Origin: Prevotella sp.
GTDB taxonomy: Bacteria > Bacteroidota > Bacteroidia > Bacteroidales > Bacteroidaceae
Assembly: GCA_016285245.1 (NCBI GenBank)
Contig: JAEEQH010000001.1
Coordinates: forward strand, 86,540 to 150,539
DNA length: 64,000 bases
Reading direction: 5' to 3'
In this document: positions 24,228 through 39,109 of the stretch, in pieces
How the letters are laid out: the number at the start of each line of letters is the position of its first letter
Numbering within the stretch: the first letter of the stretch is position 1
Notes under the pieces: generated by a model
What the model was told of the DNA's origin: nothing
What the model saw: only the letters and a program-made list of their open reading frames with translations
Database searches by the model: none
Made by a program: the position numbers and the translations under genes

Positions 24228-24605
24228 ATGGCAGATATTAAAGCTATTGCTGAGCAGTTGGTAAACCTGACTGTGAAGGAAGTGAACGAGTTGGCAACGG
24301 TCCTGAAGGACGAGTATGGAATTGAGCCTGCTGCTGCAGCCGTTGCAGTAGCTGCTGGCCCCGCAGCTGGCCCCGCTGAGGCAGCTGAGGAGAAGACCTC
24401 TTTCGACGTGGTGCTGAAGTCGGCTGGCGCTGCTAAGCTCCAGGTGGTGAAGGCCGTGAAGGAAGCATGTGGTCTGGGCCTGAAAGAGGCTAAGGATCTG
24501 GTTGACGGTGCTCCCGCCACCATCAAGGAAGGCCTGTCAAAGGATGAGGCTGAGAACCTGAAGAAGACCATCGAGGCCGCTGGTGCCGAGGTTGAGCTGA
24601 AGTAA
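24228..24605 (+). CDS. rplL: 50S ribosomal protein L7/L12
   Basis: [69 protein letters not shown]. Confidence 0.99.
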
Positions 24606-24628
24606 TTCAGTCCGAAACGATACCATTA

Positions 24629-24666
24629 GGTTAGGAACTCTCCAGTAGAGGGTTCCTAACCGTTTT
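24629..24666 (+). terminator. rplL-rpoB attenuator/terminator-like hairpin
   Basis: GGTTAGGAAC (24629-24638) pairs with GTTCCTAACC (24652-24661), followed by GTTTT. Confidence 0.7.
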
Positions 24667-24679
24667 CGTCTCTCTATCA

Positions 24680-24737
24680 CTAGATTTTCTAGACTGACTA
24701 GATAATCTAGAAGTACTAGTAAATCTAGGACATTTAG
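24680..24737. repeat. 9-bp-periodic CTAG array
   Basis: CTAG begins at 24680, 24689, 24698, 24707, 24716 and 24725 (exactly 9 bp apart), followed by TTAG at 24734. Confidence 0.95.
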
Positions 24738-24755
24738 AATCAACATTATTTTTAT

Positions 24756-27700
24756 ATGGCTTCAAAAGTAATAGACAACAGAGTAAACTTTGGCAGCGTC
24801 AAGAACCCGATGCCATTACCCGATTTCCTCGACGTGCAGCTCAAGTCGTTTCAGGACTTCCTGCAATTAGACACTCCGCCTGAGGAACGCAAGAACGACG
24901 GTCTCTACAAGGTGTTCGCCGAGAATTTCCCCATTACCGACACACGCAACAATTTCGTGCTTGAGTTCCTGGATTACTATATTGACCCGCCCCGCTACAC
25001 CATAGAGGAGTGCCTGGAGCGTGGCCTTACATATAGTGTACCCCTGAAGGCTAAGTTGAAACTGTATTGCACCGACCCTGACCACGAGGAGTTTGGAACC
25101 GTCATTCAGGATGTATTCCTTGGCCCCATTCCCTACATGACGCAGAACGGCACCTTCGTCATCAACGGTGCTGAACGTGTGGTGGTCTCTCAGCTGCATC
25201 GCTCGCCGGGTGTGTTCTTCGGACAGAGCGTACATGCCAACGGTACTTTGCTCTATTCAGCACGCATCATCCCCTTCAAGGGGTCGTGGATAGAGTTTGC
25301 CACCGACATCAACAACGTGATGTATGCCTATATCGACCGAAAGAAGAAGTTGCCTGTTACTACGCTGCTGCGTGCCATCGGTTTCGAGAACGACAAGGAC
25401 ATACTGCAGATTTTCGACTTGGCTGAGGAGGTGAAAGTGAACAAGGCCGCACTGAAGAAAGTGCTGGGATGCAAACTGGCTGCCCGTGTGCTGAAGAGTT
25501 GGAACGAGGACTTTGTCGATGAGGATACGGGCGAAGTTGTATCTATTGAGCGTAACGATGTCATCATGGACCGTGAGACGGAGATTACCGAAGACAACAT
25601 GATGGCCATCCTTGAGAGTGGCGCTCAGACCATACTCGTGCATAAAGATGAGGCTGTGGCACAGGACTACAGCATTATCTTCAACACGCTCGCCAAGGAC
25701 CCGTCAAACTCGGAAAAGGAGGCTGTGCTCTACATCTATCGCCAACTGCGCAATGCCGACCCTGCCGACGATGCTTCTGCTCGCGAAGTCATACAGAATC
25801 TCTTCTTCAGCGACAAGCGTTATGACTTGGGTGATGTAGGCCGCTACCGCATCAACAAAAAGCTGGGGCTTGACACCGAGATGAACGTGCGTGTACTGAC
25901 AAAAGAGGATATTATCGAGATTATTAAATACCTCATACAGCTCATCAACTCAAAAGCAGCTGTCGACGATATCGACCACCTGTCGAACCGCCGCGTGCGC
26001 ACAGTGGGCGAGCAGCTCAGCAACCAGTTCTCAATAGGCCTGGCGCGCATGAGCCGCACCATTCGTGAGCGCATGAACGTGCGCGACAACGAGGTGTTCA
26101 CACCTACCGACCTTATCAACGCCAAGACCATTTCGAGCGTTATCAATTCGTTCTTCGGCACCAACCCGCTGTCGCAGTTCATGGACCAGACCAACCCCCT
26201 GGCTGAGGTGACACACAAGCGCCGCCTCTCTGCACTTGGCCCTGGCGGTCTGAGCCGCGAGCGTGCAGGCTTCGAGGTGCGCGACGTGCACTATACCCAC
26301 TATGGACGCCTTTGTCCTATTGAGAGCCCTGAAGGTCCGAACATCGGTCTTATCTCCTCGCTCTGCGTCTATGCCAAGATCAATGAGCTGGGCTTCATAC
26401 AGACCCCCTATCGTAAGGTGGAGAACGGCATAGCCAACCTCAACAACGATGAGATAGTCTATCTCACTGCTGAGGACGAGGCCAATTACATCATTGGTCA
26501 GGGCAATGCTCCGCTTAACGACGACGGCACCTTCATACGCAAGGTAGTGAAGTGCCGCCAAGACGCCGACTTCCCCGTGGTTCCTCCTTCAGAGGTGAAC
26601 CTGATGGATGTGTCGCCGCAGCAGATAGCCTCTATAGCCGCATCGCTTATTCCCTTCCTGGAGCACGACGATGCTCACCGTGCACTCATGGGATCGAACA
26701 TGATGCGCCAGGCTGTGCCCCTGCTCCACAACGAGGCTCCCATCGTGGGTACCGGCATCGAGAAGCAGGTGTGCGAGGATTCCCGCACCATGATAACCGC
26801 TGAGGGCGACGGTGTCATTGAGTATGTCGACGCCACCACCATTCGCATTCTCTACGACCGCACCGATGACGAGGAGTTTGTGAGCTTCGAGCCGGCACTG
26901 AAGGAATACCGCATTCCAAAGTTCCGCCGCACCAACCAGAATATGACCATCGACCTGCGTCCTATCTGCGACAAGGGACAGCGTGTGAAGAAGGGTGACA
27001 TCCTGACCGAAGGCTATGCCACTGAGAACGGTGAGCTGGCACTGGGCCGCAACCTGCTCGTGGCATACATGCCGTGGAAGGGTTACAACTATGAGGATGC
27101 TATTGTGCTCAACGAGCGCATCGTGCGCGAGGACATTCTCACCAGTGTCCACGTTGACGAGTACTCGCTCGACGTGCGTGAGACGAAGCGCGGTGTTGAA
27201 GAATTCACCTCCGACATCCCCAATGTCTCGGAGGAGGCCACTAAGGACCTCGACGAAAACGGTGTCATCCGTGTGGGTGCCCGTGTGGAGCCGGGCGACA
27301 TCCTTATCGGCAAGATTTCACCGAAGGGTGAAAGCGATCCCTCGCCTGAGGAGAAGCTGCTGCGCGCCATCTTCGGCGACAAGGCCGGCGATGTGAAGGA
27401 CTCTTCGCTGAAGGCCAATCCTTCGCTCACTGGTGTCATCATCGACAAGAAGCTCTTTGCCCGTGCCATCAAGACACGCCAGACAAAGATGCAGGACAAG
27501 GTGACACTGGCCAAGATTGACGAGGAATACGAGGCTAAGGTCAACGACTTGAAGGACATCCTCATTGACAAGCTTGCTGAGCTGACAAAAGGCAAGACTT
27601 CGCAGGGCGTGAAAGACTATACCGGAGCCGAAATCATTACCAAAGGCTCAAAGTTCACCATGACCGTGCTTCGCAATCTGGAGTATGGCGACGTGCAGAC

Positions 27701-28568
27701 GAACAAGTGGACCAATGATGACCACAAGAACGAACTCATAGCCAAGCTCATCATTAACTATATGAAGAAGTACAAGCTGCTCGATGCAGAGATGAAACGC
27801 CGCAAGTTTGCCATCACTATTGGCGATGAGCTGCCCTCTGGCATCCTGCAGATGGCTAAGGTCTATGTGGCCAAGAAGCGCAAGATTGGCGTGGGCGACA
27901 AGCTGGCCGGCCGTCACGGCAACAAGGGCATTGTGTCGAAGGTGGTGCGTCAGGAGGATATGCCGTTCCTTGAGGACGGACGTCCTGTCGACCTGGTGCT
28001 CAACCCTCTGGGCGTGCCTTCGCGCATGAACCTCGGACAGATCTTCGAGGCCATTCTCGGTGCTGCCGGCAAGCGCATGGGCGTGAAGTTTGCCACACCT
28101 ATCTTCGATGGTGCTAAACTGGATGACCTGGCCGAGTGGACCGACAAAGCCGGACTGCCCCGCCTGTGTTCCACACACCTCTATGACGGTGAGACGGGCG
28201 AACGCTTCGACCAGCCTGCCACCGTGGGTATCACCTACTTCTTGAAGCTCGGCCACATGGTGGAGGACAAGATGCACGCTCGCTCCATAGGCCCGTACAG
28301 CCTCATCACCCAGCAGCCGCTTGGAGGTAAGGCTCAGTTCGGTGGCCAGCGCTTCGGAGAGATGGAGGTTTGGGCACTCGAAGCCTTCGGTGCCAGCCAT
28401 GTACTTCAGGAGATTCTTACTATCAAGTCTGATGATACCGTGGGCCGCTCAAAAGCCTACGAGGCTATTGTCAAGGGCGAGCCGATGCCTACACCGGGCA
28501 TCCCCGAATCGCTCAATGTGCTGCTCCATGAGCTGCGCGGCCTCGGCCTGAGCGTGACCCTCGACTAA
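24756..28568 (+). CDS. rpoB: DNA-directed RNA polymerase subunit beta
   Basis: 1270 aa; canonical RpoB motifs including [31 protein letters not shown] and [24 protein letters not shown]. Confidence 0.99.
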
Positions 28569-33029: not shown

Positions 33030-33520
33030 CATAAGCGCACATAAAGCAGTCTGCTGTTGACCGAAGCGAAAAAAAAAGCCCGCTGTTGACCGCTGCTAAA
33101 AAAAGTCCGCTGTTGTCCGCTGCTAAAAAAGTCCGCTGTTGTCCGCTGCTAAAAAAAGTAAAAAAAGTAGCCCGCTGTTGTCCGATGCGCACATAAAAAG
33201 TCCGCTGTTGACCGAAGCGCACATAAAAAAGTCCGCTGTTGTCCGATGCGAAAAGTAGCCCGCTGTTGTCCGATGCGCACATAAAAAGTCCGCTGTTGAC
33301 CGAAGCGCACATAAAAAAGTCCGCTATAGTCCGATGCGAAAAGTAGTCCGTTGTTGTCCGATGCGAAAAAAAGTAGTCCGTTGTTGTCCGATGCGAAAAA
33401 GAAGCAGTCCGCTGTTGTCCGATGCTAAAAAAGTAGTCCGCTGTTGTCCGATGCGAAAATAAGTAGTCCGTTGTTGTCCGATGCGTACATAAAAAGACCG
33501 CTGTTGACGGAAGCCTCACA
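33030..33520. repeat. Array 1: ~16 imperfect tandem copies of a 27-39 bp unit with core GTCCGCTGTTGTCCGATGC and A-rich linkers
   Basis: Direct reading of units such as gtccgctgttgtccgatgcgaaaagta; contains a duplicated block of about 87 bp. Confidence 0.95.
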
Positions 33521-33617
33521 AAAAAAGTTAAATAGCAACACGTGCCCTACTTTTCTTCAGCAGTTTTCCTAAGTTTTCATTAATTTTGCAGCAAAATTGA
33601 CAAGAACAAATAATCAT

Positions 33618-38502: not shown

Positions 38503-39109
38503 GACTTACCTAGCTACGCCGCAACTGATACTATTAGCAGAGGACAACAGCGGACTACAACGGACTTATGTGCCACATTGTAAGTCCGCTGCAAATTATT
38601 AGTCCGTGGTTATCCGCTGCAAAATATTAGTCCGTTGTTGTCCGCTGCATAATAATAGTCCGCTGTAGTCCGCTGCAAAATATTAGTCCGCTGTTGTCCG
38701 CTGCATAATAATAGTCCGCTGTAGTCCGCTGCAAATTATTAGTCCGCTGTTGTCCGCTGCATTATAATAGTCCGTTGTTGTCCGCTGCAAAATATCTGTC
38801 CGCTGTTGTCCGATGCATAATAATAGTCCGCTGTTGTCCGATGCATAATAATAGCCCGCTGTTGTCCGCTGCAAAATAATAGTCCGCTGTTGTCCGATGC
38901 AAAATATCAGTCCGCTGTTGTCCGCTGCAAAATAATAGTCCGCTGTTGTCCGATGCAAAATATCAGTCCGCTGTTGTCCGCTGCATTATAATAGTCCGCT
39001 GTTGTCCGATGCATTATAATAGTCCCCTGTTGTCCGATGCAAAATAATAGTCCGCTGCAAAAATCAGTCCGTTGTTATCCGCTGCAAAAAGAGTCCGTGG
39101 TTGTCCGCG
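38503..39109. repeat. Array 2: inverted copies followed by ~17 regular 28-bp units (AGTCCGCTGTTGTCCGMTGC + 8-bp AT-rich linker)
   Basis: Units read directly, e.g. agtccgctgttgtccgctgcataataat; reverse-oriented copies around 38538-38568. Confidence 0.95.

Follow-up and report, generated by a model that had tools for sequence, protein, structure and literature searches.

A conserved CTAG array between rplL and rpoB and its probable place in a class of phased repeats paired with small four-helix-bundle proteins

The array at the rplL-rpoB junction

The window analysed here, a stretch of 64,000 nucleotides, carries on its forward strand the rplL gene for ribosomal protein L7/L12 (24228..24605, an open reading frame of 125 amino acids) upstream of rpoB (24756..28568, an open reading frame of 1270 amino acids). 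RNA folding places a strong 14-bp hairpin, attenuator- or terminator-like and followed by a T-rich stretch, at 24629..24661 on the same strand; in relatives as well, a hairpin and an array follow the end of rplL. Between the hairpin and rpoB lies an array of six CTAGN5 units with a period of 9 bp (24680..24728, without assigned strand), recognized by pattern count and by orthologous arrays in relatives. As the earlier note had claimed, CTAG begins exactly at 24680, 24689, 24698, 24707, 24716 and 24725, and TTAG at 24734. This TTAG (24734..24737) is a seventh in-phase unit, one transition away from CTAG, and the one-base variants CTGG and CCAG occur in relatives. The spacers are, in order, ATTTT, ACTGA, ATAAT, AAGTA, TAAAT and then GACAT, and from 24680 the region reads CTAGATTTT CTAGACTGA CTAGATAAT CTAGAAGTA CTAGTAAAT CTAGGACAT TTAGAATCA. 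A gap of 27 bases separates the end of the last CTAG from the rpoB ATG (24756).

The pattern (CTAGN5)2CTAG has four matches in the window, every one inside this array, and dinucleotide shuffles, a kind of control that the earlier note had called for, contain none. Given the density of CTAG in the window, 5.5e-16 runs of six phased CTAG are expected; chance is excluded as the origin of the array. It is also the sole (CTAGN5)2CTAG array of the 2.77-Mb source assembly, which is 81% complete. The covariance models of Rfam 15 give no match at 24,600-24,760, even at E <= 1. A possible resemblance to arrays of restriction sites was considered and not adopted. Elsewhere in the window, two long arrays of GTCCGCTG(T)/GTCCGATGC units, with periods of about 26-30 and up to 17 copies, lie downstream of rpoC (33048-33528) and near 38.6 kb (38584-39108). 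They possibly represent another array family, and a related GCTCGGACTGACAG repeat stands beside one gene (L531) of the TIGR04258 protein family described below.

Among 91 rplL-rpoB regions of relatives that were read for arrays, many contain a 9-bp-phased array at the same site, in the order hairpin, array, rpoB, with a core that varies by species. The core is CTAG in most, CCGG in G018, G093, G098, G116, G137, G149 and G467, or CTATAG/CCTATAAG, with TATA-centred cores in G022, G034 and G096. Some of the 91 regions have no array and consist of unrelated sequence or of almost no spacer (G050, G066). The hairpin is kept in nearly all relatives, array present or absent.

Two lineages have CTAG arrays that can be aligned, and their units were aligned by hand, with each string checked against the genomic sequence. 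Pairwise divergence in the first lineage (8 species) is 1.0% in cores versus 32.7% in spacers, with 1 of 24 core columns variable against 19 of 26 spacer columns (Fisher 3.6e-7); the second lineage (9 species) gives 5.1% versus 34.5%, with 4 of 24 and 16 of 28 variable columns, respectively (p 0.004). The cores stay while the spacers drift, and the cores are thus under purifying selection or otherwise actively kept. The view that motif and phase are retained, and that the array is no recent tandem duplication, is supported by these orthologous arrays, in which spacers have diverged in place around conserved cores.

The same alignments bear on mutational bias as an explanation, according to which slipped replication or template switching would homogenise short palindromes in the absence of selection. 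Some arrays do contain recent identical units, and local higher-order duplications occur. However, orthologous units align one to one with spacers diverged in place and cores kept, and such a bias leaves unexplained both the TCNGA arrays and the fixed 9- or 10-bp periods by protein clade described below. We give this explanation scant credence.

The interpretation in the earlier note is partly supported. The low divergence of the cores speaks for selection on the motif. A device specific to rpoB is doubtful, because many other loci also carry arrays, for the most part close to the 3' ends of genes, and the rplL-rpoB site of some relatives lacks one.

Phased arrays in related genomes

The interpretation in the earlier note depended on similar arrays existing elsewhere, and phased arrays prove abundant in relatives. 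A scan finds (CTAGN5)2CTAG in 77 of 150 congeneric genomes, with up to 213 overlapping matches each versus 0-7 or fewer for the reversed pattern; of the 301 genomes examined at the family level, 100 have the pattern, and they fall in 17 of 30 genera. Outside the family, the named records are mostly Bacteroidales, with some Victivallales and Kiritimatiellae, and the few matches in other phyla resemble coding repeats. Genomes with CTAG arrays also contain CCGG-N5 and CTATAG-N3 arrays, and a general scan finds TCNGA-N4 and other period-9 arrays alongside arrays of period 7 and 8. A single trans-acting factor with one specificity per genome was rejected, since several core types share a genome. 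Of the periods scanned in one genome (G010), a 9-bp spacing of CTAG cores is clearly the most prominent.

The copies are dispersed. Intergenic arrays begin a median of 12 bases past the preceding stop codon. Few of them separate divergent genes (6 of 91 versus 58 of 273 intergenic regions), and some are found between convergent genes. Many further arrays overlap open frames, a share that is uncertain because the gene calls are simple ORF calls. Strand polarity relative to the upstream gene is weak, with 43 purine-rich and 25 pyrimidine-rich arrays. Tandem in-frame stops, with a TAG every 9 bases past the gene stop, were also considered: 12 of 62 arrays begin in the stop codon, and this reading was rejected because CCGG and TCNGA arrays contain no such stop.

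Several further observations concern placement. Array clusters are present in viral contigs. In the nearly complete genome G010, most CTAG arrays fall within one 170-kb stretch (G010:C3, 1.52-1.69 Mb, L255-L264) that lies between the inverted heptamer arrays (GAGAGTT)n...GCCCGTC and GACGGGC...(AACTCTC)n, and no four-helix-bundle gene was found in that genome. Placement is also uneven in a 2.76-Mb contig (G372:C6), where all listed CTAG triplets lie beyond 1.45 Mb. CTAG arrays within open frames (L018, L054, L399 and others) read as Thr-Ser-x or Leu-Glu-x repeats, and these in-frame arrays always use the unusual CTA-G junction.

The array had been proposed to act either as a register for a binding protein or as an RNA, whose self-complementary units would adopt alternative pairings in the rpoB leader that adjust rpoB expression. 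In favour of the RNA, the rplL-rpoB array can fold into a hairpin, and rpoB arrays fold slightly better than versions with shuffled spacer letters (mean z -0.98). This weak excess is gone under permutation of spacer order, which is the better control: for 22 rpoB arrays, permuted orders fold as well (median fraction as stable 0.48), and mirror pairing is absent. Within spacers, N1:N5 complementarity lies below its null (539 versus 557.7 expected); no hairpin covariation is seen between neighbouring units, and no mirror pairing of the whole array is seen over 186 arrays (868 versus 853.7, p 0.17). The presence of arrays between convergent genes also speaks against an RNA device, as does TCNGA, an odd palindrome that cannot make full stems. 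Self-pairing units are therefore not supported, and we consider the RNA device very unlikely. We infer that recognition on double-stranded DNA fits the arrays better. The register for a binding protein is supported indirectly, in that phase and core symmetry persist through a switch of core, the motif tracks a protein tree and TCNGA belongs to the class.

Four-helix-bundle proteins and their arrays

A comparison of array-adjacent genes across genomes yielded one recurrent family. These partner proteins, about 217 amino acids long, match TIGR04258 (four helix bundle suffix domain). They have weaker matches to TIGR02436/PF05635, the profiles of the S23 or 23S rRNA intervening-sequence protein (IVP) family; TIGR02436 scores above its cut-off and PF05635 just under (30.6 versus 33.8). 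The predicted TIGR04258 structure is a four-helix bundle with a mean pLDDT of 84.6 (confident), and its closest PDB folds are the S23-family structures 2GSC and 2RLD, with no Foldseek match at E <= 0.001. Both profile and fold thus place the partner proteins in the S23/IVP family; no partner gene was found in the window. No transposase family matches the TIGR04258 partner protein at a meaningful score. An anti-phage defence family was tried as a further candidate and rejected, with no PADLOC match. The structures of S23/IVP proteins are solved, and to our knowledge they have no known function outside the Avd relatives.

The genes lie inside arrays. At loci chosen solely for TIGR04258, a detector of arrays with a 7-11 bp period within 200 nt scores 47 of 55 TIGR04258 genes versus 44 of 485 control ORFs from five genomes, 8 of 232 distal windows taken from these loci and 0 of 116 flanks after shuffling (p 8.8e-34). 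Each TIGR04258 copy has its own motif, given here with its period: CTAG/9, CCTAGG/10, TCNGA/9, CTATAG/9, CCGG/9, TCGA/8 and many others. The motif tracks the protein tree. On a tree of 95 proteins it requires 19 changes versus 59.4 when shuffled, a clustering that near-copies help, and the period needs 4. The CTAG/9, TCNGA/9 and CCTAGG/10 groups each span long protein distances.

Plain TIGR02436 genes, which encode about 120 amino acids without the suffix, have an array with a period of 7-8 bp on each side, the two in inverted orientation, and this holds for Prevotella, for cyanobacteria and for a spirochaete. In Prevotella, all 19 of the plain genes read in eight genomes, both copies of the source genome among them, are flanked by inverted arrays as judged by eye. 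An inverted-repeat score of at least 12 is reached by the flanks of 19 of 24 plain genes versus 1 of 156 control ORFs; in a phylum-wide draw the proportion falls to 10 of 26. Among genes carried by plasmids of cyanobacteria, Treponema saccharophilum and Bernardetia, 15 of 15 have an array within 150 nt versus 7 of 131 ORFs of the same plasmids, where one of the 15 (L652) passes by a weak match alone and has no array in its flanks by eye. The heptamers at these plasmid genes, e.g. TAATTCG, GCGAATT and GTAGGGA, are of the STRR kind. That the array class is tied to TIGR04258/TIGR02436 proteins we regard as nearly certain.

Some of these genes have distinctive neighbours or extensions. TIGR04258 genes with CCTAGG/10 arrays (L489, L516, L519, L523; also L482, L515) adjoin apparent type I restriction genes, with hsdS upstream and hsdR downstream as judged from short translated stretches. 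A TIGR04258 subgroup (L539, L544, L550-L553, L666, L669) has a topoisomerase-like zinc-ribbon end (CPLCGKPMIKR...CSxYPxCNGT), and most of its members with readable arrays have period 8. Three cyanobacterial plasmid cassettes with a four-helix-bundle gene (L651, L653, L647) interrupt CRISPR-cas operons, either separating cas6 from cas4 or immediately preceding cas1.

Arrays and partner genes are also associated across genomes. Among genomes of the genus that are at least 90% complete, 25 have both CTAG arrays and TIGR04258, 6 arrays only, 14 the gene only and 26 neither (p 1.4e-4). In the 11 genomes with an rpoB array and TIGR04258 flanks that were read, the rpoB array and a gene share their motif in 4 (CTAG in G007 and G061, CCGG in G137 and CCTATAAGT in G096) and do not in 7. 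These 4 are all the genomes whose TIGR04258 genes include a motif of a type known from rpoB sites; the permutation p for this agreement is 0.02, with motifs paired by eye in a small sample. The source genome, at 81% completeness, gives no TIGR04258 match. Its only two TIGR02436 genes (L619 on G000:C49 and L620 on G000:C33) have other repeats on both sides, TTCAATTC with period 8 and ATGAAAG with period 7. The most fitting name for the rpoB array is thus a solo array, its partner being absent, left out of the assembly or replaced. Four genomes (G010, G034, G049, G093) hold 62-101 CTAG triplets with no TIGR04258 match, and in G010 (99% complete) no TIGR02436 gene was found either; arrays can therefore persist, and perhaps grow, without the protein.

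Such genomes, in which array cores stay conserved in the absence of a four-helix-bundle gene, would suit a DNA-binding protein of the host from some other family, such as a ribbon-helix-helix dimer or a MerR-like filament of the BldC kind, with the four-helix-bundle genes merely inserting near its sites or carrying them. BldC indeed binds in head-to-tail fashion to 9-bp direct repeats (PMC5859096). Such a binder leaves unexplained, however, how motif and period follow the four-helix-bundle tree over long distances, and we judge it distinctly unlikely.

The arrays could instead be relics of a mobile element, namely the ends of a four-helix-bundle cassette, with solo arrays as remnants that have no present function. 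The genes are flanked by inverted arrays and lodged between other genes, there are many copies per genome with patchy presence, and arrays are depleted from divergent intergenic regions; the proteins also share a family with those of rRNA intervening sequences (PMC4990558). Against this, the cores of a relic should decay as fast as the spacers, yet they are kept at rplL-rpoB, and the arrays have no linked transposase and no demonstrated empty-site pair. A pure relic seems unlikely to us, although it deserves more weight than the other alternatives. It would be equally simple to suppose that the arrays bound a mobile cassette with kinship to the rRNA intervening sequences, and that some copies were later kept for function.

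A proposed explanation and its relation to known systems

Our preferred reading, to which we assign a probability of about 0.6 as a whole, is that the rpoB array is a conserved solo copy of a protein-paired class of phased arrays. The class would consist of degenerate arrays with a period of 7-10 bp paired with small S23/IVP four-helix-bundle proteins: those with period 9-10 and mostly palindromic cores (CTAG, CCGG, CTATAG, TCNGA, CCTAGG) would belong to TIGR04258 proteins, and those with period 7-8, as a rule in opposite orientation to the left and right of a gene, to plain TIGR02436 proteins. Each protein, probably an oligomer like the solved S23 relatives, would recognise its own array on double-stranded DNA with about one protein contact per 7-10 bp unit, and arrays would spread and persist through this recognition. 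Judged from sequence, direct recognition of an array by its protein is somewhat favoured. A bound rplL-rpoB array may be kept for its effect on transcription passing from rplL to rpoB. Since arrays lie mostly just after stop codons, an array with its protein bound could influence transcription that runs out of one gene and into its downstream neighbour, and our guess is that at rplL-rpoB it would tune read-through into rpoB. That the array affects rpoB is, on comparative sequence evidence, possible and rather doubtful.

A broader conjecture, offered tentatively, is that S23-family four-helix bundles are register-reading, nucleic-acid-binding oligomers that maintain and spread their own arrays. 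Cyanobacterial heptamers would then form one cross-phylum system together with the Prevotella arrays built on CTAG, CCGG and TCNGA, with some arrays, such as that at rplL-rpoB, co-opted as regulatory sites whose core changes with protein specificity. Tandem repeats of 7-10 bp fill the intergenic DNA of Bacteroidota and Cyanobacteria and now have a candidate partner protein, and pairing them with S23/IVP proteins gives the questions of repeat origin and protein function one direct test. If the explanation is true, paralogues with different motifs (CTAG, CCGG, CTATAG, TCNGA, CCTAGG and others) form a ready series for studying in-register DNA reading by a small helical protein.

Tandem operators of the MetJ/TrpR type consist of adjacent palindromic boxes every 8 bp, each bound by a ribbon-helix-helix or TrpR dimer, whereas the period of the rplL-rpoB array is 9. 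A precedent for a 9-bp DNA register is BldC of Streptomyces, which places one protein unit per 9-bp repeat on arrays of variable length (PMC5859096). BldC, however, is a MerR-like winged helix-turn-helix protein that reads an asymmetric AATTNNNNC, and neither its sequence nor its fold relates it to the four-helix-bundle proteins; the array in the window has a palindromic CTAG core and no AATT phase in place of asymmetric AATTNNNN(C) direct repeats.

The REP/RAYT system (PMC3116915) shares with the phased arrays dispersed extragenic palindromic repeats, several types per genome, gene-repeat co-evolution and a repeat type that adjoins its cognate gene. REPs, in contrast, are units of about 16-25 bp that pair into hairpins, compared with 7-10-bp units with variable spacers here, and in place of an HUH/Y1 transposase the partner is a four-helix bundle without a known catalytic site. 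The RAYT analogy is functional only.

Close in protein are the intervening sequences (IVS) of 23S rRNA (PMC4990558), in which an ORF for the same protein family is enclosed by inverted repeats. In the IVS of Coxiella, GACAGAT heptamers precede the ORF, and the Xanthomonas S23 protein is a homopentamer (PMC4990558). IVS differ in lying inside rRNA genes, from which RNase III cuts them out, whereas the cassettes and arrays of this analysis have protein genes as their neighbours, and some arrays stand alone with no ORF. Close in repeat are the heptanucleotide STRR of cyanobacteria and the TAACTGA repeats (PMC4679880), tandem heptamers in intergenic DNA, and cyanobacterial four-helix-bundle flanks are of the same type. 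TAACTGA repeats are known in Beggiatoaceae, Cyanobacteria and Bacteroidetes, and their study names no partner gene and no evident mechanism of spread (PMC4679880). Flanks of plain four-helix-bundle genes have the tandem 7-bp units of STRR, while the window array, with period 9 and a 4-bp core, does not; arrays in the present class also have periods of 8-10 and keep only the core. In the open-access literature, to which our search was confined, we found nothing about TIGR04258 and no work that connects S23 proteins with tandem repeats. STRR, TAACTGA repeats and IVS are described there separately, and phased arrays paired with versions of one protein apparently form a large, undescribed class.
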